Source of the DNA: Tritonibacter litoralis
GTDB taxonomy: Bacteria > Pseudomonadota > Alphaproteobacteria > Rhodobacterales > Rhodobacteraceae
NCBI RefSeq assembly: GCF_009496005.1
Contig: NZ_WIBF01000012.1
Coordinates: 62,001-126,000, forward strand
Length of the DNA stretch: 64,000 bases
Direction of reading: 5' to 3'
Shown: one piece after another, positions 5,333 through 23,109 of the stretch
Numbering within the stretch: position 1 is the stretch's first letter
Layout of the letters: each line of letters begins with the position of its first letter
Notes under the pieces: model-generated
Databases searched by the model: none
What the model was told of the DNA's origin: nothing
The model's input: the letters and a program-made list of their open reading frames with translations, nothing else
Program-made: the position numbers and the translations under genes

Positions 5333-5845
5333 ATGGCCGACAGTTCACAGAAGTTCATAGCCCGCAATCGGGCGCCGCGGGTCCAGATTGAATATGATGT
5401 GGAACTTTATGGCGCTGAGAAGAAAGTCCAGCTGCCGTTTGTCATGGGCGTGATGAGCGACCTGGTGGGCAAATCCGAGGTGGAGCAGCCCGCAGTTGCG
5501 GATCGCAAGTTCCTGGAAATCGACGTCGACAACTTCGATGATCGGATGAAATCCATGGCGCCGCGCGCGGCCTTTACCGTGCCTAATACGCTGACGGGCG
5601 AAGGCAATCTGGCGGTGGATATCACCTTTGAAAGCATGGATGATTTCAAACCGGCCGCCATCGCCGCCAAGGTTGAACCGCTGCGCGAGCTGTTGGAAGC
5701 GCGCACCCAGCTGTCGAACCTGATGACCTATATGGACGGGAAAACCGGTGCGGAAGATCTGATCTCCAAGATCATTCAGGATCCGAGCCTTCTGAAAACC
5801 CTTGCTGCGCAGCCGAAACCCGGCGGCGACGAGAGTGAAGAGTAA
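5333..5845 (+). CDS. tssB: T6SS contractile sheath small subunit TssB
   Basis: 170 residues, the normal TssB/VipA length. It carries the family signatures RVQIEYDVELYG, LPFVMGVMSDL, the FLEIDVDNFDDRM segment and the DFKPAAIAAKV-EPLRELLEAR helix. TssB pairs with TssC to form the sheath that contracts to fire the Hcp tube. A strong AAGGAG site (5321-5326) precedes the start. The first 48 residues are nearly identical to the N-terminus of the giant fusion at 16815-20339, with high DNA identity too, which suggests recent duplication or gene conversion. Confidence 0.96.
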   Translation: MADSSQKFIARNRAPRVQIEYDVELYGAEKKVQLPFVMGVMSDLVGKSEVEQPAVADRKFLEIDVDNFDDRMKSMAPRAAFTVPNTLTGEGNLAVDITFESMDDFKPAAIAAKVEPLRELLEARTQLSNLMTYMDGKTGAEDLISKIIQDPSLLKTLAAQPKPGGDESEE

Positions 5846-5859
5846 GAGAGGAGCGCGAG

Positions 5860-7356
5860 ATGGCTGAACAAGACCTTCAACAGGAAGCGGCTGCTGGCGA
5901 AGCGGCCTTTGGCTCCAATGAATTTGCGAGCCTTCTGCAAAAAGAATTCCGTCCCAAGTCGGATCAGGCAAAGACCGCTGTGGAAAGCGCGGTCAAGACG
6001 CTGGCCGAACAGGCGCTGGCCAATGCCGGTCTGATCTCGGATGATGCGCTGCGCTCGATCGAGAGCATTGTCGCAGAGATCGACAAGAAGCTGACCGAAC
6101 AGGTGAACCAGATCCTCCACAACGAGGAATTCCAGCAGCTGGAAAGCGCGTGGCGCGGTCTGCATTACCTGGTGAACAACACTGAAACCGACGAAATGCT
6201 CAAGATCCGGGTGATGCCTGTCACCAAAAAGGAACTGGGCAAGACGCTGAAGAAGTTCAAAGGCACCGCCTGGGACCAGTCCCCGATCTTCAAGAAGATC
6301 TATACCGAGGAATTCAGCCAGCTGGGGGGTGAACCCTATGGGTCCCTTGTGGCGGATTTCCACTTTGATCATTCGCCGCCAGATATTGAGCTGCTGGGGG
6401 AGATGTCCAAGATCGCTGCCGCCTCCCATGCGCCGCTGATCACCGGTGCGAAGCCGACATTGTTTCAAATGGACAGCTGGTCGGAGCTGTCAAACCCGCG
6501 CGATCTGACCAAGATCTTCCAGACGCCGGAATACGCCGCCTGGCGCAGCTTGCGTGACAGCGAAGATGCGAAATACGTGGGTCTGGCGATGCCACGTTTC
6601 CTGGGCCGTCTGCCTTATGGCTCCAAAACCGATCCGGTTGAGGAATTTGCCTTTGAGGAAGACACCGCAGGAGCAGGCAGCGAGAAATATGGCTGGGTCA
6701 ACGCGGCCTATGGCATGGCGGTGAATATCACCCGTTCGTTTAAAATGTACGGCTGGTGTTCGCGGATCCGTGGCGTCGAAAGCGGCGGTACGCTGGAGGA
6801 TCTGCCATCGCATACCTTCCCGACCACCGATGGTGGCGTGGATCAGAAATGCCCGACCGAGATCGCGATTGACGACCGTCGCGAGGCGGAACTGGCGAAG
6901 AACGGTATGATGCCGCTGATCCACCGCAAGAACACCGATGTGGCCACATTCATGGGCGCGCAGTCCTTGCACAAGCCTGCGGAATATGACGATCCGGATG
7001 CAACCGCCAACGCGAACCTGGGCGCGCGCTTGCCCTATCTGTTCGCGACCTGCCGGTTTGCCCATTACCTGAAGTGTATGGTGCGCGACAAAGTCGGCTC
7101 CTTCAAAAGCCGTCAGGATATGGAAAACTGGCTGCAGGAATGGATCAACAACTATGTAGATTTCAACGCTGACATTTCGTCAGAGGCTGAAAAGGCGCGC
7201 AAACCACTGGCTGCGGCGGAAGTGGTTGTGGAAGAGGTCGAAGGCAACCCGGGCTATTACAGCTCGAAATTCTTCCTGCGCCCGCATTACCAGTTGGAAG
7301 GCCTGTCGGTCTCGCTCCGTCTGGTATCCAAATTGCCTTCAGAAAAGGGAGGTTAA
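5860..7356 (+). CDS. tssC: T6SS contractile sheath large subunit TssC
   Basis: 498 residues, full TssC/VipB length. An N-terminal helix (NEFASLLQKEFRP) resembles the ClpV-binding helix of the family. The core includes EFQQLESAWRGLHYLV, DFHFDHSPPDIELL, PRFLGRLPYG and the C-terminal sheath-forming part YLFATCRFAHYLK through FFLRPHYQLEGLSVSLRLVS. The gene follows tssB by 14 bases, so the pair is expressed in balance. Comparison with the fusion at 16815 is useful: that protein lacks this C-terminal third. This TssC is therefore the subunit expected to build the working sheath. Confidence 0.97.
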   Translation: MAEQDLQQEAAAGEAAFGSNEFASLLQKEFRPKSDQAKTAVESAVKTLAEQALANAGLISDDALRSIESIVAEIDKKLTEQVNQILHNEEFQQLESAWRGLHYLVNNTETDEMLKIRVMPVTKKELGKTLKKFKGTAWDQSPIFKKIYTEEFSQLGGEPYGSLVADFHFDHSPPDIELLGEMSKIAAASHAPLITGAKPTLFQMDSWSELSNPRDLTKIFQTPEYAAWRSLRDSEDAKYVGLAMPRFLGRLPYGSKTDPVEEFAFEEDTAGAGSEKYGWVNAAYGMAVNITRSFKMYGWCSRIRGVESGGTLEDLPSHTFPTTDGGVDQKCPTEIAIDDRREAELAKNGMMPLIHRKNTDVATFMGAQSLHKPAEYDDPDATANANLGARLPYLFATCRFAHYLKCMVRDKVGSFKSRQDMENWLQEWINNYVDFNADISSEAEKARKPLAAAEVVVEEVEGNPGYYSSKFFLRPHYQLEGLSVSLRLVSKLPSEKGG

Positions 7357-8004: not shown

Positions 8005-8805
8005 ATGACCGCAGAAGAGTATTTGAAAGCTGGCGAGCCGACCCAGGCGCTTGCGGCCTTGCAGGACAAGGTGCGCAAAGACCCGTCCAATGCCAAGCTG
8101 CGGATCTTTTTGTTTCAGCTTTTGTGCGTGTTAGGGGACTGGAAACGGGCAATTGCCCAGTTGAAAATCAGCGCGGAGATGGATGAGAGCGCCACGATGA
8201 TGGCGCAGACCTACCGTGAGGCGATTATTTGTGAAGTCTACCGTGAGAAAGTGTTTGCGGGTGACAAGGCTCCGTTGATCCTGGGCGAACCGGAACCCTG
8301 GCTGGCCCATCTGATTGAGGCACAAAAGCTGTTGGCGGCCGGTCAGGTGGAACAGGCAGCCACCCTGCGCGGGCAGGCTTTTGAGGCCGCGCCCACCACC
8401 AGTGGTACGTTAAATGGTGTGTCTTTTGAGTGGGTTGCAGATGCGGACATGCGTCTGGGCCCGGTGTTGGAAGTGCTGATCAACGGCAAATATTACTGGC
8501 TGCCGTTTTCGCAGATCAAATCCCTTGAAATCGAAGCGCCGAGCGATCTGCGTGACACCGTCTGGATGGCGGGTGTGCTGACGTTGGTGAACGGGGGTGA
8601 GCTGGCGGCCTTGATCCCCACCCGGTATCCGGGGTCGACCCAGGGGGATGAGGCGGTCAAAATGGCGCGTTCGACCCAATGGCAGGATTTGGGACAGGGC
8701 ACATTTGTGGGTCTGGGGCAGCGGCAGCTGGCCACCGATCAGGCGGATGTTGCGGTGATGGATGTGCGGTCTCTGGTTCTGGGAGATGCCGACACCGATG
8801 GCTGA
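8005..8805 (+). CDS. tagJ: T6SS accessory protein TagJ (ImpE family)
   Basis: 266 residues, ImpE family. The N-terminal third is a helical repeat region (AEEYLKAGEPTQALAALQDKVRKDPSNAKLRIFLFQLL). The C-terminal part contains the family block FEWVADADMRLGPVLEVLINGKYYWLPF and ends with VMDVRSLVLGD. Known relatives (HsiE1 of Pseudomonas) bind the small sheath protein and assist ClpV-driven sheath recycling. Since the giant fusion begins with an almost identical TssB N-terminus, TagJ might bind both. It overlaps tssE by 8 bases. Confidence 0.93.
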   Translation: MTAEEYLKAGEPTQALAALQDKVRKDPSNAKLRIFLFQLLCVLGDWKRAIAQLKISAEMDESATMMAQTYREAIICEVYREKVFAGDKAPLILGEPEPWLAHLIEAQKLLAAGQVEQAATLRGQAFEAAPTTSGTLNGVSFEWVADADMRLGPVLEVLINGKYYWLPFSQIKSLEIEAPSDLRDTVWMAGVLTLVNGGELAALIPTRYPGSTQGDEAVKMARSTQWQDLGQGTFVGLGQRQLATDQADVAVMDVRSLVLGDADTDG

Positions 8806-14951: not shown

Positions 14952-15905
14952 ATGGCCGAAGTAAATAAGTCATTCGATCTGATCACGGTGAATGCCAAAA
15001 ATATGGATCTGCCAAATGGGAAGATCACTCTGAAGGTGTCGGGCAAAGAGATCGACACCTCCCTGCTCGCGCGGATTATGGAGCCGGTCTATTCCTATCT
15101 GAATGACTATCGCAAAATGGCGATTAACCCGGCGATCCAGAAATACGACAAACAGTTCGAGGGGATGAGCGACAAGAAAGAGGTCGAAAAGCTGGCCAAA
15201 CTTGTCAATGACGAGCTGAAGAAGCTGGTCGCGAACCTTGAGAAGGAAGCCCAGAACCGGATCAAGGCCTCCTGGGAAAAGATCAAGAAAGAGAACAAGG
15301 AATACACCAAGTGGAAGCTGAAGATCGCGGCCAATATCACCTGGGGTGTGGTCAAGATCGGCAAATCCATTGCGGCTCTTGTGGCCAGTTCCGGCGCGAA
15401 GCTGGATGAATATTACAAGGTTGCCAAATCCGTTTATAGCATCGCCAAAGAGGTGAAAAAGGCCATCGCGACCGAGACCAAAGTGCGCGAAGACCTGATG
15501 AAAGCCCTGGAAAAAATGGCCAAGGCGACCAAGGACGGCAAGGTTGGCAAAAGCCATATCACCAAGGTCGAAGACACGGTGAAGGAATATAAGGTCAAGC
15601 TGACAGCGGCGCGTCAGAAGGCCTCTTCCATGGCGAAACCCTTGGAAAAACTGCTGCAGCTTCAGGATGAGGGCGTTGCCGTCACCAAGAAACAGGAAGC
15701 GGCGATCAACAATATGATCAGCCAGATCATCGAATTTAACACCACCGAACAGAATGGTCGCAAGTTTGCTGATTTTGCTCTGAAAAAGGCGCAGGATGCC
15801 CAGGGGACATTGGATCTGAAAACCATCAAAGCGCATGCTGAGAAGGTCAAAAAGGCCATCGATATTGCGATCAAAGTGTTTGAGGTCGCAGCCGATATCC
15901 TGTGA
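14952..15905 (+). CDS. Lysine-rich helical protein of unknown function in the T6SS operon
   Basis: 317 residues with a strong GAGGAG site. After a short beta-like start (FDLITVNAKNMDLPNGKITLKV) the protein appears almost wholly helical and very rich in Lys and Glu, with long heptad-like stretches (for example VEKLAKLVNDELKKLVANLE). One less charged patch, NITWGVVKIGKSIAALVASS (about residues 129-148), may be an amphipathic or membrane-touching helix. No signal peptide, cysteine or catalytic motif is seen. The Lys bias stands out from its neighbours. It lies between clpV and a sodium channel gene. Candidate roles are a T6SS structural accessory or a helical membrane-active effector; neither is shown by the sequence. 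Confidence 0.75.
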   Translation: MAEVNKSFDLITVNAKNMDLPNGKITLKVSGKEIDTSLLARIMEPVYSYLNDYRKMAINPAIQKYDKQFEGMSDKKEVEKLAKLVNDELKKLVANLEKEAQNRIKASWEKIKKENKEYTKWKLKIAANITWGVVKIGKSIAALVASSGAKLDEYYKVAKSVYSIAKEVKKAIATETKVREDLMKALEKMAKATKDGKVGKSHITKVEDTVKEYKVKLTAARQKASSMAKPLEKLLQLQDEGVAVTKKQEAAINNMISQIIEFNTTEQNGRKFADFALKKAQDAQGTLDLKTIKAHAEKVKKAIDIAIKVFEVAADIL

Positions 15906-15961: not shown

Positions 15962-16822
15962 ATGAACGTAGAGACGACGCAGACCGAGCCTGTAACGCTG
16001 CGCGACAAGGTGCGCGCTTTTGTTGAGACCGATTGGGTCGGCAATGCCATTCTCGCGATCATCATCTTCAACGCCATTATGCTGGGGCTGTCGACCTCGG
16101 ATAATGTGATGGCGGTTGCGGGCGGGTTTATCTCGGTTCTGGACGATATTGTGCTGGCGATCTTTGTGATCGAGCTTTTGATGAAGCTTTATGCCTATGG
16201 GCTGCGGTTCTTTACCTCCGCCTGGAACATCTTTGATCTGGTGGTTGTGGGTCTGGGTCTGTTGCCCGATCGTCAGGGTTTGTCGGCGCTGCGCGGCCTG
16301 CGTGTGATCCGGGCCATGCGTCTGTTGTCGGTGATCCCGCAGATGCGGGCGGTGGTGCAGGCCTTGCTGGATGCGCTGCCGGGCATGGGCGCGGTGATCA
16401 TTATGATCTCGATCGTCTTTTACGTCTTTGGCGTGATGGCCACCCTGATGTATGGGCCGGAGTTTTATGAATGGTTCGGCACCCTTGGCCGGTCCTTGTA
16501 TTCGCTGTTTCAGATCATGACGCTGGAAAGCTGGTCGATGGGGATCGTGCGCCCGGTGATGGAGACCTATCCGGCGGCCTGGGCGTTTTTTGTCCCCTTT
16601 ATCATCATCACGGCCTTCTCCGTCTTGAACCTGTTTATCGGTCTGCTGGTCAACACCATGCAATCGGCGGTGGAGGAAGAGGCCGAGCAGGAGTTTGAAA
16701 AGCTGCGGGATCTGGTGAAAAGCGAGACGGATCTTGTCGATGCGCATGTACTGGCGCTGCACGATGAGATCAAGGCGCTGCGGGCCGAGGTGGCTGCGTT
16801 GAAAGGGGGCAGCGATGGCTGA
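15962..16822 (+). CDS. Voltage-gated sodium channel (NavAb/NaChBac type)
   Basis: 286 residues with six membrane segments. S4 carries arginines at every third place (111, 114, 117, 120, in LRGLRVIRAMR). The pore loop reads FQIMTLESWSM, with filter residues T187-M193 identical to the TLESWSM filter of the sodium channel NavAb. S6 is followed by an acidic neck and a C-terminal coiled coil (VLALHDEIKALRAEVAALK) that holds the four subunits together. Such channels occur in marine roseobacters. What is odd is the place: it sits inside the T6SS operon, 56 bases after the helical protein gene, and its 3' end overlaps the TssB-TssC fusion start by 8 bases, so the two are translationally coupled. Confidence 0.93.
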   Translation: MNVETTQTEPVTLRDKVRAFVETDWVGNAILAIIIFNAIMLGLSTSDNVMAVAGGFISVLDDIVLAIFVIELLMKLYAYGLRFFTSAWNIFDLVVVGLGLLPDRQGLSALRGLRVIRAMRLLSVIPQMRAVVQALLDALPGMGAVIIMISIVFYVFGVMATLMYGPEFYEWFGTLGRSLYSLFQIMTLESWSMGIVRPVMETYPAAWAFFVPFIIITAFSVLNLFIGLLVNTMQSAVEEEAEQEFEKLRDLVKSETDLVDAHVLALHDEIKALRAEVAALKGGSDG

Positions 16823-19800
16823 CAGTTCGCAGAAATTTATCGCCCGCAATCGCGCGCCTCGGGTCCAGATTGAATATGATGTCGAGCTTTATGGCGCCGA
16901 GAAAAAGGTGCAGCTGCCTTTTGTCATGGGGGTGATGAGCGATCTTGTGGGCAAGTCCACGGTGGCGCAGCCCTCGGTGGCCGAGCGGAAGTTCCTTGAG
17001 ATCGATGTGGATAATTTTGACGAACGCATGCGAGCCATGGCCCCGCGTGCGGCCTTTACCGTACCCAATACCTTGACCGGAGAGGGCAATCTGGCGGTGG
17101 ATCTGACCTTTGAGAAGATGGAGGACTTCAGCCCCGGTGCCATCGCCGCCAAGGTCGACGCGCTGCGCCCGTTGCTGGAGGCGCGACAGCAGCTGACGAC
17201 ATTGATGGCCTATATGGATGGCAAGACCGGGGCGGAAGCTTTGGTGGAGAAGGTGCTGCAGGATCCAAGTCTGTTGTCGGGGTTTGAACCGGCGGCGGCA
17301 ACCTCTGCGGATATGACAGCCGTTCTGGATGAGCTGCGCGAGCAAGCCCCGGAAGAGGCGGGCGAGGATCAGACTGCTGCGGCGCTTGCAAGCCTTGGGT
17401 CGGTGGCACCTGCGGAAGCGCCGCCGGAAACCGACGCGCAAGCGGTGCTGGATGGATTGGCGGCGGCCGCACCTGAGGCGCTTGTGGCGGGCGATGCCAT
17501 GGCGGATGTTCTGGGAGATCTCGCAGCCGCCGCGCCGCAGGGGACGTCTGAAACAGGGGATGCGGCGCAACGTGTTTTGGATGGGCTGAGCGCGGCAGAA
17601 GCTGACGTGGAAACGCCAGAGGACAAGACGTCTGATGTTCTGGCGGAACTGGCCAATGTCACGGTGCAAGAGGTGACAGATCAGGATGCTGCGGGAGAGG
17701 TCTTGGATGCGCTGACGGCGGCTGCTCCTGCGGAGGAGCCCTCCGCCACAGATGAGGCGGCAGCGGTGTTGGATCAGCTGAGCGCGACCGCACCTGAGGG
17801 CGATGCGTCGCAAACGGATGGTGTCGCGGATATTGATCTGAGTGATCTGTTGCCTGAGCCGGAGCAGCCTGCAGAGCAGGGCGATGATCTGGACGATGTT
17901 CTAGCCGGGCTGGAAGCCGCTGCGCCTGCGGAGGTGGAGAGCGGTGTTGAGGATGTTTTGTCCGAATTGGCGGAGGTGCCGGTAGGGGATGATGACCCGA
18001 CTGACACCGTGGATGCGGCCCTGGCCGGTTTGGCAGGGGCGACACCAGATGACCCTGTGGCGGATGACATTGACCTGAGTGATCTGCTGCCCGAGGCGGA
18101 GCAACCTGCAGAACAGGGCGATGATCTGGATGATATCCTAGCCGGGCTTGAGCCAGAGGATGTGAGCGCGCCGGTTGGCGATGATCTGGGTGATATTCTG
18201 GAGACTGTCGCAACGCCGCCCGCACCAGAGGGCGGATCCACCGATGATTTGGACGATATCCTGGGGGATCTGGCGGATTTGGATGACCCAGTGCCGGACT
18301 CAGACGGCTCGGCTGCGGCATTGGCCAGCCTACCTACTGAGGACGTGCCGACGGAGGCTGCGGACCCCGACCTTGGCGCCTTGCTGGGCGAGTCGGACGG
18401 CACCGGCGATCTGGATGATATTCTAGCGGATTTGGGGCTGGAGGATGATCCGGCAGAGGCAGATGACGCGGCAGCTGCTGCGGTTGTCGACGACAGCGCG
18501 GATTTGGATCTGGATGATCTGTTGAGCGATTTGGATCCTGCGGCAAACAGTGAGGATGGGGCGGCCCCGACATCAGAGGGTGCGGCGTCGGCGGACACAG
18601 AAGCGGCAGTCGAAAGTGCGGATCCGGTCGAGATCGAGTTTCCCTTTGGCACGCTTTCTGCGGATCGCCCAACGCCCGAAGTTCTGACACGGCGTCGGTT
18701 CCGGATGGCGGTCTTTGGCGATTTTTCGGGTCGGGCGGCGCAAGGCCGGGTGGAGATCGGCGATGATCTGGCGGCGCGGACCGGGCAGCTGTTGGATGTG
18801 GATACGGTTGAGGATGTGATCGAAGGGTTCGCCGGGGATCTGATGCTGCCGATTGGCAAGGAAGGTACGGTGGTTCAGGTGCCGCTGGGGGGGCTGGATG
18901 ATCTGCATCCCGACGAGCTTTATGAAAAAATGCCACTGTTTGCTGAGCTGGAGTCGCTGCGCAAGCAATTGGCCAGTGGCGCAACGGCCGGGTCTGCGGC
19001 GGCATCGCTTTCGGCCTGGGGGGAGAAATACGGCACACCGGCCGCAGCTCCGCGCCTGTCATCTTCGGCGACAGCGGTGCCTGCGGATCTGCGGCTGAGC
19101 GATTTTCAACGTCTGATCGGGGATGTGTCACCGCAGCCCAGTGAAGCCTCTCCCGTGGCTGAGCTGATGGAACGGGTGGTGGGGCCGCATATTCGCCGTT
19201 TGCCGGATCCCAACACCACGGCGATGCAAGAAGCCGTGGGAGACGCGCTGAGCCATGCGATGCGGATGGTGCTGCACCATCCAGAGTTTCAGGCGATCGA
19301 GGCGCAATGGCGCACGCTGGACCTGATGGCGCGGTCGATTGAGACCAATGATAAGCTGGAACTGGTGCTTTATGACATTTCCGCGCAAGAGCTGGCAGCG
19401 GATCTGGCGGCCGAGGAAGACCTGACCCAAAGCGGTCTGATGCGGTTGTTGACCGAAGGGCCGTTGGACCCCGAAGAGGGGCGGGGTGGATATTCCGCCA
19501 TTATCGGACTGTATCAGTTTGAGGAAACGCCGCCCCATGCAGAGCTGCTCGGGCGGTTGGCGCGGGTTGCGGCGCATGTGGACGCGCCGTTTATGGCGGC
19601 GATTTCGCCTGCTTTCCTGACCACGCCCAAGGAGGAACGCCCAAAATTGGTGGCCGAGGCCTGGGATACATTGGCCGCGATGCCAGAGGCCGTGCATCTG
19701 GGGCTGTTGGCACCACGTTTTCTTTTGCGGCGTCCCTATGGGGCCAAAACAGATCCGATTTATGAGTTTGACTTTGAAGAATTCACCGAGGCGGAAGGGC

Positions 19801-20339
19801 TGAAGGGCATGTTATGGGGCAACCCTGTTGCCTTGGCTGCCATCCTGATGGGGCGGTCCTTTGCCAAAAACGGGGCCGCGATGGACCTTGGCTCGATTAT
19901 GTCGCTGGGGGACATGCCCTATCATTACGTTTTGGACCGGTTTGGTGATCAGGTGGCGCTGCCCTGTACCGAGCGCAACATTGACCTGGATAAAATTGCG
20001 ACGGCCAAGGAGCGCGGGTTTATGGCGGTGTCCGCCGTCAAAGGGCAGGATGTGGTGCGGTTGACCTCATTCATGGCGTTGAACGGCGGTGATCTGTCAG
20101 GACCGTGGAGCGATATCCCGGTGCCGCCGCCATCACCACCTGAGGTCACGGCAGCACCAGAACCTGAGGCCGCGCCTGCTGCGCCTGCACCGGTTGAAGC
20201 GGAGGCTGACAGCGACAGTTTGGACGATGAGCTGGACGCGCTGTTGGCTGGATTTGATGATGAGACGCCGGATCAGGATGCGGCGTCTGAAGATGATTTT
20301 GACGCAGAGCTTGCGGCTTTGTTGGATGATTTGCGATGA
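16815..20339 (+). CDS. Giant TssB - acidic repeat linker - TssB' - TssC fusion protein
   Basis: 1174 residues. Residues 1-165 are a TssB domain nearly matching tssB (5333-5845). Residues about 165-595 are a low-complexity acidic linker of about twenty short repeats. Residues about 605-735 look like a second, divergent TssB fold (FRMAVFGDFSGRA, DVDTVEDVIEGF, LDDLHPDELYEKMPLF). Residues about 760-1100 match the N-terminal two thirds of TssC (HPEFQAIEAQWRTLDLMA, AELLGRLARVAAHVDAPF, PRFLLRRPYGAKTDP). The TssC C-terminal core present in the real TssC is missing; a Pro-rich and acidic tail with two more repeat-like units replaces it. It probably cannot build a normal sheath alone and may cap, space or regulate it. 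The start lies within the sodium channel gene end. Confidence 0.9.
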   Translation: MADSSQKFIARNRAPRVQIEYDVELYGAEKKVQLPFVMGVMSDLVGKSTVAQPSVAERKFLEIDVDNFDERMRAMAPRAAFTVPNTLTGEGNLAVDLTFEKMEDFSPGAIAAKVDALRPLLEARQQLTTLMAYMDGKTGAEALVEKVLQDPSLLSGFEPAAATSADMTAVLDELREQAPEEAGEDQTAAALASLGSVAPAEAPPETDAQAVLDGLAAAAPEALVAGDAMADVLGDLAAAAPQGTSETGDAAQRVLDGLSAAEADVETPEDKTSDVLAELANVTVQEVTDQDAAGEVLDALTAAAPAEEPSATDEAAAVLDQLSATAPEGDASQTDGVADIDLSDLLPEPEQPAEQGDDLDDVLAGLEAAAPAEVESGVEDVLSELAEVPVGDDDPTDTVDAALAGLAGATPDDPVADDIDLSDLLPEAEQPAEQGDDLDDILAGLEPEDVSAPVGDDLGDILETVATPPAPEGGSTDDLDDILGDLADLDDPVPDSDGSAAALASLPTEDVPTEAADPDLGALLGESDGTGDLDDILADLGLEDDPAEADDAAAAAVVDDSADLDLDDLLSDLDPAANSEDGAAPTSEGAASADTEAAVESADPVEIEFPFGTLSADRPTPEVLTRRRFRMAVFGDFSGRAAQGRVEIGDDLAARTGQLLDVDTVEDVIEGFAGDLMLPIGKEGTVVQVPLGGLDDLHPDELYEKMPLFAELESLRKQLASGATAGSAAASLSAWGEKYGTPAAAPRLSSSATAVPADLRLSDFQRLIGDVSPQPSEASPVAELMERVVGPHIRRLPDPNTTAMQEAVGDALSHAMRMVLHHPEFQAIEAQWRTLDLMARSIETNDKLELVLYDISAQELAADLAAEEDLTQSGLMRLLTEGPLDPEEGRGGYSAIIGLYQFEETPPHAELLGRLARVAAHVDAPFMAAISPAFLTTPKEERPKLVAEAWDTLAAMPEAVHLGLLAPRFLLRRPYGAKTDPIYEFDFEEFTEAEGLKGMLWGNPVALAAILMGRSFAKNGAAMDLGSIMSLGDMPYHYVLDRFGDQVALPCTERNIDLDKIATAKERGFMAVSAVKGQDVVRLTSFMALNGGDLSGPWSDIPVPPPSPPEVTAAPEPEAAPAAPAPVEAEADSDSLDDELDALLAGFDDETPDQDAASEDDFDAELAALLDDLR
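17290..18600 (+). repeat. Coding repeats: about twenty 18-22-residue acidic units in the fusion linker
   Basis: Each unit has a short amphipathic core of the type xVLDxLxxAAP or DDLDDILAGL, separated by Pro/Asp/Glu/Thr-rich spacers. The first half favours AVLDGLAAAAPE-like units, the second half LDDILAGL-like units. One longer stretch is duplicated almost exactly at the DNA level: 17829-17914 and 18066-18151, 237 bases apart, showing growth by internal duplication in frame. Confidence 0.85.
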
Positions 20340-22506: not shown

Positions 22507-22515
22507 GTGGTGGGT

Positions 22516-23109
22516 ATGAGTGGTCGTTTTGAAAATCTGGTGAAGGTTCCGCCAGATCCTGTGGCCAAAATGTTGTCGCATGCCAATGTGTTACTAAAAA
22601 CTCCGCTGGAGGCTCCGCCAACAGCAGATGCGGCAACCGTATTGGAAGAACTGGAGCGTAAAGGCGCGTTGATCGATTTGTTGCGGGTTCTGGCCGTTGT
22701 GTTGCCCGCGCGGGAACGGGTGTGGTGGGCTTGTTTGGCGGCGCGCGATTACATTGGTCCACGGGGACCGGATGATCCGCCGTCATTGGCGAAATCAGAG
22801 GCCTGGGTGTTAGATCCTTCCGAGGAAAACCGCGATGCGGCGCGGATCACGCTGGATCATGCCTATGTGGATGATGACACTGTGAATTGCGCGTTGGCGG
22901 TGCTGTATCACGATGGGACCCTGGGGCCTGGAGATCTGCGGCAATATCCGGCGCCGGCCGGGGCTGCGGAAACTGCGGCCTTTGCCATGAATATGGTAGC
23001 CTTGGGACAATTGTCTGATAAGTTTGAAGAACACGGCCGCTTGCTGGTCGACCGTGCTTTGGATATTGCCAAGGGAGGTCGCGGTTTGGTTGCGGCTGCA
23101 GGTGAGTGA
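22516..23109 (+). CDS. DUF6931-type protein between vgrG and PAAR
   Basis: 197 residues from the ATG at 22516, which follows a GGTGGTGGG site; vgrG ends 9 bases earlier. It is helical, with segments ATVLEELERKGALIDLLRVLAVVLPARERVWWACLAARDY and AFAMNMVALGQLSDKFEEHGR. The ARERVWWA block recalls DUF6931 proteins, which are often found beside VgrG or PAAR genes. No signal peptide or catalytic motif is seen. Role is unknown; an adaptor that helps load cargo on the spike is possible from context only. Confidence 0.72.
   Translation: MSGRFENLVKVPPDPVAKMLSHANVLLKTPLEAPPTADAATVLEELERKGALIDLLRVLAVVLPARERVWWACLAARDYIGPRGPDDPPSLAKSEAWVLDPSEENRDAARITLDHAYVDDDTVNCALAVLYHDGTLGPGDLRQYPAPAGAAETAAFAMNMVALGQLSDKFEEHGRLLVDRALDIAKGGRGLVAAAGE

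Follow-up and report, generated by a model that had tools for sequence, protein, structure and literature searches.

The type VI secretion system (T6SS) of Tritonibacter litoralis examined here lies within a stretch of 64,000 nucleotides (contig NZ_WIBF01000012.1, positions 62,001 to 126,000; hereafter the window) and encodes, in addition to a normal TssB and a normal TssC, a further sheath-type protein that carries elements of both on one chain. The chain begins with a canonical TssB domain (TssB-N), continues through a long acidic linker into a divergent TssB-like half (TssB') and the N-terminal, or body, domain of TssC (TssC'), which together we call the core, and ends in an acidic tail (Table 1). 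The name TssCL was given in roseobacters (Front Microbiol 2022, PMC9515649) to single-chain proteins that contain two VipA domains and one VipB domain and are encoded alongside normal tssB and tssC; the window protein has this composition and is a TssCL. Our literature search found the term in that paper only and, for TssB/TssC fusions, truncated TssC or orphan TssC, returned only a study of a TssB point mutant among the matches listed.

Domain organisation and integrity of the fusion

Pfam places T6SS_VipA matches in two stretches of the window frame and VipB, the tail sheath N-terminal domain, at residues 808-1085, while VipB_2, the C-terminal gpW/gp25-like domain, is not matched up to E = 1. 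The TssB profile TIGR03358 scores the whole frame at 192.9 bits, above its cut-off of 97.25, with its best stretch at 6-155; the TssC profile TIGR03355 reaches 130.5 bits, below its cut-off of 271.5, and covers only 55-343 of 473 positions. These are the domains of the original prediction, which was made from the DNA letters and described an N-terminal TssB close to the operon's own (by our measurement 84% identical over residues 1-154, the last 16 TssB residues being missing), an acidic repeat region (about 430 residues then, about 445 here), and a second, divergent TssB-like fold with a TssC-like domain devoid of its C-terminal part, all in an operon that also holds normal tssB and tssC. Its layout needs one amendment: the TssC-like part is not the end of the chain, since an acidic tail of about 75 residues follows, the last motif of which is kept in all 88 loci of our survey. 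In PMC9515649 the VipA domains of the ANG-M7 TssCL are given as 86% and 26% identical to TssB.

The survey comprised the best 80 of 496 genome relatives from a scan with the core alignment, seven plasmid loci and the window. It rules out a frameshift or an assembly join as the origin of the frame: of 72 loci in which the 5' end of the frame is closed, 64, among them the window, carry the same TssB-linker-core frame, one of them (L038) with a degenerate TssB. The other eight are L019, L067, L078, L085, L086, L087, L091 and L057, the last being the one split by a frameshift. Record titles of the 80 relatives are of Rhodobacterales type or read just Alphaproteobacteria, and the nearest among them by core identity are Epibacterium ulvae (Rhodobacterales) and an uncultured Rhodobacteraceae bacterium. 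The ratio of nonsynonymous to synonymous substitution rates (dN/dS) is 0.02-0.11 in 10/10 pairs for both TssB-N and core, with one pair near dS saturation; the sampled TssCL pairs are under purifying selection.

Two observations concern the database records. In the Pseudophaeobacter leonis record (L205, G675) the fusion is broken in two, a frame of 707 codons and one of 588, through a frameshift or a sequencing error. In all seven plasmid records (L005, L006, L008, L009, L010, L011 and L012) the annotated coding sequence begins 150-1037 codons downstream and so omits all or nearly all of TssB-N, for which reason the architecture may escape database surveys.

Table 1. Features of the window and of three one-chain TssB-TssC loci (the latter in coordinates of their own loci)
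Feature	Position	Strand	Basis
TssCL-type protein, whole chain	16815..20339	+	single open frame, 1174 residues
TssB-N, canonical TssB domain, residues 1-154	16815..17276	+	Pfam T6SS_VipA 10-154; HsiB1 structure matches
Acidic repeat linker, residues 155-599	17277..18611	+	motif counts; Pfam scan empty
TssB', divergent TssB-like core half, residues ~600-788 including junction to TssC'	18612..19178	+	core profile, AF2 model
TssC', TssC N-terminal (body) domain, residues ~789-1099, without VipB_2	19179..20111	+	
Acidic C-terminal tail, motifs LDALLAGF and DAELAALLDDL	20112..20336	+	motif conservation over 88 loci
Operon tssB	5333..5845	+	Pfam, TIGR03358
Operon tssC, VipB and VipB_2	5860..7356	+	Pfam, TIGR profiles
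tagJ/impE, candidate partner of TssB-N arm	8005..8805	+	Pfam ImpE
Ion-channel gene, overlaps fusion start by 8 bp	15962..16822	+	Pfam Ion_trans
One-chain TssB-TssC, L098	1201-3123	+	
One-chain TssB-TssC, L104	1111-3099	-	
One-chain TssB-TssC, L119	928-2904	+	

Fold of the core

The AlphaFold 2 (AF2) model of the TssB'-TssC' core has a predicted local distance difference test (pLDDT) score of 86, and its best structural matches are sheath proteins; a Foldseek search against viral structures gave weak sheath matches only. The core has the sheath body fold in one chain, as have the sheaths of phages, pyocins and extracellular contractile injection systems (eCIS). From positions 16-20 onward the core profile aligns with TssB chains of known structure, beginning at their residue ~23-32, so that the N-terminal arm of TssB is missing, and in seven stand-alone relatives VipB_2 was not found up to E = 0.01; neither these nor the window protein holds a complete TssC C-terminal domain at the thresholds given. 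The core is thus, as far as profiles and model can tell, a one-chain sheath body devoid of both couplings of the sheath mesh, the TssB N-terminal arm and the TssC handshake domain, whose roles in the sheath are treated in PMC5807055. Because both are lacking, the core should not build a normal sheath, as had been anticipated for the fusion from its truncated TssC.

The canonical TssB-TssC protomer (5n8n, 3j9g) differs in being made of two chains rather than one and in possessing the arm and the handshake domain. The one-chain sheaths of pyocin R2, the Photorhabdus virulence cassette (PVC) and the antifeeding prophage (AFP) are ~10% identical to the core, and their aligned part ends at about residue 291-313, before the C-terminal part. 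The folded construct, cut at residue 1104, aligns only to the body of one-chain contractile sheaths; in TssCL an arm is carried elsewhere in the chain, in TssB-N, and core-only forms have no arm at all.

Origin and distribution of the core

In a maximum-likelihood tree of the TssC body region, 18/18 cores are monophyletic (bootstrap 100), as are 9/9 ImpD-type second TssCs (100), which were assigned because their genes follow tssC, the arrangement known from Agrobacterium; the 14 canonical TssCs are not. The view of the chain as simply a shortened fusion of the sheath genes of its own operon is not supported: in the tree the core forms an old clade of its own, and it is not a recent fusion of the local genes. 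PMC9515649 regards TssCL as probably a recent TssB-TssC fusion in certain Alphaproteobacteria, not detected outside that class, whereas the core clade described here has stand-alone members outside the Alphaproteobacteria (Eleftheria, G394 and G601). New relative to that paper are, furthermore, the description of the linker and tail motifs and the demonstration that both couplings are lacking.

A second TssC homologue beside the canonical one is also known from Agrobacterium, where TssC40/ImpD is needed for Hcp secretion and TssB still accumulates without it (PMC3702570). Identity of the core with ImpD/TssC40 is rejected, since the tandem second TssCs are full length (VipB_2 is retained in 2/2 tested) and form another clade; this set was identified by position and does not include Atu4340 itself.

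Scans of increasing breadth trace the core beyond the survey. At the level of the window's order, 244 genomes were scanned: the sheath profile finds matches in 67, and the core occurs in 25, each of which also has a canonical TssC, when the core is counted at our own threshold of E ≤ 1e-79 (the best canonical TssC there scores 4e-58). The short cores at this level are those of G711 (L208), which is core-only, of G822 (L209), which breaks off where its contig ends, and of G896 and G735; the first two were inspected. Class-wide, core matches that include the TssB' half occur in 2/289 genomes (the window's own and G148) and phylum-wide, at E ≤ 1e-42, in 3/398 (the window's own, G601 and G394); G604 was rejected as a phylum-level core because its tssB and tssC are separate. 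Six divergent stand-alone cores were obtained in all: L004 (Eleftheria), L123 (G148), L162 (G601), L163 (G394), L206 (G722) and L207 (G751), of which L206 and L207 come from the window's own family group. That of the betaproteobacterium Eleftheria terrae has 592 residues, bears the C-terminal motif and adjoins tssK; that of L163 lies beside tagH, tssK, tssL and tssM. A run of R-body (RebB family) genes (33232-35331 in L004) lies ~13 kb after the Eleftheria core.

One-chain TssB-TssC proteins of small genomes

TssB and TssC are also joined in one chain in certain small alphaproteobacterial genomes (0.6-1.9 Mb), which were picked because the class-wide scan had shown long frames there. In 10/10 of these the sole VipA and the sole VipB_2 match fall in one frame of 638-698 codons: the three loci of Table 1, which were scanned whole and contain VipA, VipB and VipB_2, and seven further genomes (G146, G152, G085, G055, G177, G284 and G248). 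Judged by their domains, these frames are complete one-chain sheath subunits in genomes that have no separate genes, and they represent an event distinct from TssCL: unlike TssCL they possess VipA with its arm, VipB and VipB_2, and have no linker. The TssC tree rejects derivation of the core from them, for the three included in it fall with canonical TssC (clade support 99) and not with the core, and their addition leaves the groupings above unchanged. In PMC8163844, tssB and tssC of a related endosymbiont are given as genes, and the passage concerned mentions no fusion.

TssB-N, linker and tail

A sample of 34 TssB-N sequences (of 64) forms one clade (FastTree support 0.995) when the Eleftheria TssB serves as outgroup; with midpoint rooting the root falls inside the group, which is then not a clade. 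L050, whose tssB is broken by a contig end, was left out of this tree. Over 34 genomes, identity is 93.6% among operon TssBs and 78.6% among TssB-Ns, and 80.1% between the TssB and TssB-N of one genome against 79.6% between genomes, which rules out gene conversion between the two. This history fits a single duplication without gene conversion, followed by faster, yet constrained, evolution.

The most conserved part of TssB-N is residues 6-28, the arm/TagJ segment, in which the consensus equals that of TssB at 23/23 positions, 19 of them invariant in 33 sequences (the degenerate L038 is excluded here and from the linker counts below). The matching HsiB1 residues 8-30 bind TagJ/HsiE1 according to PMC4239648. 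By sequence, TssB-N thus retains the arm of TssB, which doubles as the TagJ site, together with most of the remaining domain.

No Pfam family was found in the window linker by the Pfam scan. It holds 16-17 short hydrophobic motifs (VLDxLxxxAP, for example), the number depending on the search pattern, against 2.4 in shuffles, and a 21-residue period is among its strongest. Across 63 complete linkers, the length is 342-1203 residues, aspartate and glutamate make up 33%, lysine and arginine number ~9 per linker, and the motif occurs on average 27 times against 4.5 in shuffled sequences. In other operon proteins there are scattered matches only. A model of TssB-N plus linker, built from 3 sequences, places short helices on 12/17 motif sites; its confidence is low (pLDDT 41) and it is not relied on. 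The tail ends in the motif [DE]L[AQE]ALLxxL in 88/88 proteins, preceded by LDxLLAGF in 86/88; of the divergent cores, that of Eleftheria has the last motif, and those of L123, L162, L163, L206 and L207 lack it.

Neighbouring genes

ImpE (TagJ) was found in 21/21 related genomes tested, and its presence shows no correlation with whether a genome has the fusion or the core only. The ion-channel gene that overlaps the start of the fusion occurs in 68 of the 72 loci with clpV in view, and in 64/64 of those with TssB-N; it is missing from L085, L086, L087 and L091, and these, like L208, are all core-only. It contains a TLESWSM stretch, which we take to be typical of bacterial voltage-gated sodium channels, and no literature link of that family to T6SS was found among the matches listed. 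Depending on the genome, the slot that separates clpV from the channel gene contains several groups of open reading frames (longest plus-strand frame 317 to 532 residues) or no frame of ≥ 150 residues. The window frame in this slot (14952-15905) has no significant Pfam or NCBIfam match and was rejected as a conserved partner, as the slot content differs between loci. A DUF6931 gene (22507-23109 in the window) follows vgrG and was detected in 87/88 loci. Outside the cluster, the window's genome holds another canonical tssC (G000:C11:17885-18793).

Possible function

The domains, missing couplings, conservation and history of TssCL are observed, whereas its mode of action is inferred. Tentatively, and with somewhat less than even confidence, we propose that TssCL is a sheath body that does not polymerise; TssB-N would tether it to the sheath or to TagJ, and it would modulate the assembly, contraction or recycling of the sheath. 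The original prediction that the fusion may join the sheath holds in outline, since TssB-N keeps the segments by which TssB enters the sheath or binds TagJ; the roles that it suggested, cap, brake, length controller or sheath-to-membrane tether, are not distinguished by these data. TssB-N would pair with the operon's TssC, replacing some copies of TssB in the sheath, or would dock via TagJ; the linker would then keep the core beside the sheath, where its body could pack on sheath bodies. Being unable to pass on the handshake, the core would modulate assembly, contraction or ClpV recycling rather than lengthen the sheath. The short motifs of the linker and the similar C-terminal motif probably bind a common partner, and where TssB-N has been lost the core would have to find its site through its own body and tail. 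A wider version of the proposal, which we regard as somewhat more doubtful, is that the core is a previously unrecognised T6SS component, an ancient one-chain body without mesh couplings. It would occur as a stand-alone, sometimes unlinked gene in several Pseudomonadota lineages, would act as a general modulator by binding sheaths from outside, and would in roseobacters have been leashed, through an array of binding motifs, by fusion to a functional TssB.

Several observations weigh against a tethered modulator of the sheath. TssB-N and linker have been lost in a clade (L078, L085-L087 and L091) that is nested among TssB-N loci in the core tree and, separately, in L019; L067 has lost TssB-N while keeping linker and core, TssB-N is degenerate in L038, and L208 is a further core-only case. 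Because some deep supports in the core tree are low (0.31 and 0.43), the count of three or more losses is approximate. The core and its C-terminal motif are kept in the surveyed lineages that lost TssB-N, and core and tail therefore look like the working unit, with TssB-N and linker as accessory; together with the orphan cores this argues that tethering is not essential. The 88 loci were, however, selected by likeness to the window core, so core retention cannot be measured in this sample. The arm is equally conserved in operon TssB, where residues 6-28 are likewise the most conserved part, and its conservation is thus no pointer to TagJ in particular. In at least one linker the motifs are no more frequent than in shuffles (minimum z of 0). 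Finally, no other T6SS gene was detected beside L123, L162, L206 and L207 by BLAST with the window proteins (19.5 kb, ~6-12 kb on each side), which is not what a role in the sheath predicts; the genomes of these four hold a canonical tssC elsewhere.

That TssB-N is dispensable would also suit a different role, in which the core acts near TagH/TssK as a baseplate or assembly factor and TssB-N with its linker is a roseobacter addition that recruits it. The neighbours of the core in L163 and Eleftheria point this way, as does the order in the surveyed loci, where it lies upstream of vgrG, DUF6931 and tagH. Gene order is nevertheless weak evidence and the best structural matches of the core are sheath proteins, so we consider such a role rather unlikely. 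A lower probability still attaches to a decoy or docking platform for sheath recycling, with TssB-N bound to TagJ and the linker motifs and tail bound to ClpV or another recycling factor. The intact TagJ site, the general presence of ImpE/TagJ and the motif excess of the linkers are consistent with this; on the other hand TagJ is also found in core-only genomes, L208 has a core while tagJ was not detected in its locus, and in TagJ systems ClpV has an altered groove for binding the LLDEII motif (PMC4239648).

TssCL might instead polymerise with TssB-TssC into a mixed sheath as an alternative subunit, TssB-N supplying the arm within the same chain. TssB-N bears the handshake donor strand of TssB (PMC5807055), which puts arm and body in one chain, and the complete TssB-TssC chains of small-genome Alphaproteobacteria show that one-chain sheath subunits are possible. 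The TssC handshake domain would still be absent, and core-only forms lack any arm, which makes a mixed sheath improbable. That TssCL is a non-functional relic of duplicated sheath genes, as the split L057 and the degenerate TssB-N of L038 might suggest, is very improbable in view of the low dN/dS in both domains and the frame intact in 64/72 loci.

Conclusions

In view of the old core clade, the published notion that TssCL probably arose by recent fusion of the sheath genes needs correction. The control of T6SS sheath length, contraction timing and recycling is still debated, and a conserved sheath body without couplings, which could dock without polymerising, is a natural probe of these processes. 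Its stand-alone homologues allow the function of the core to be studied apart from the fused TssB.
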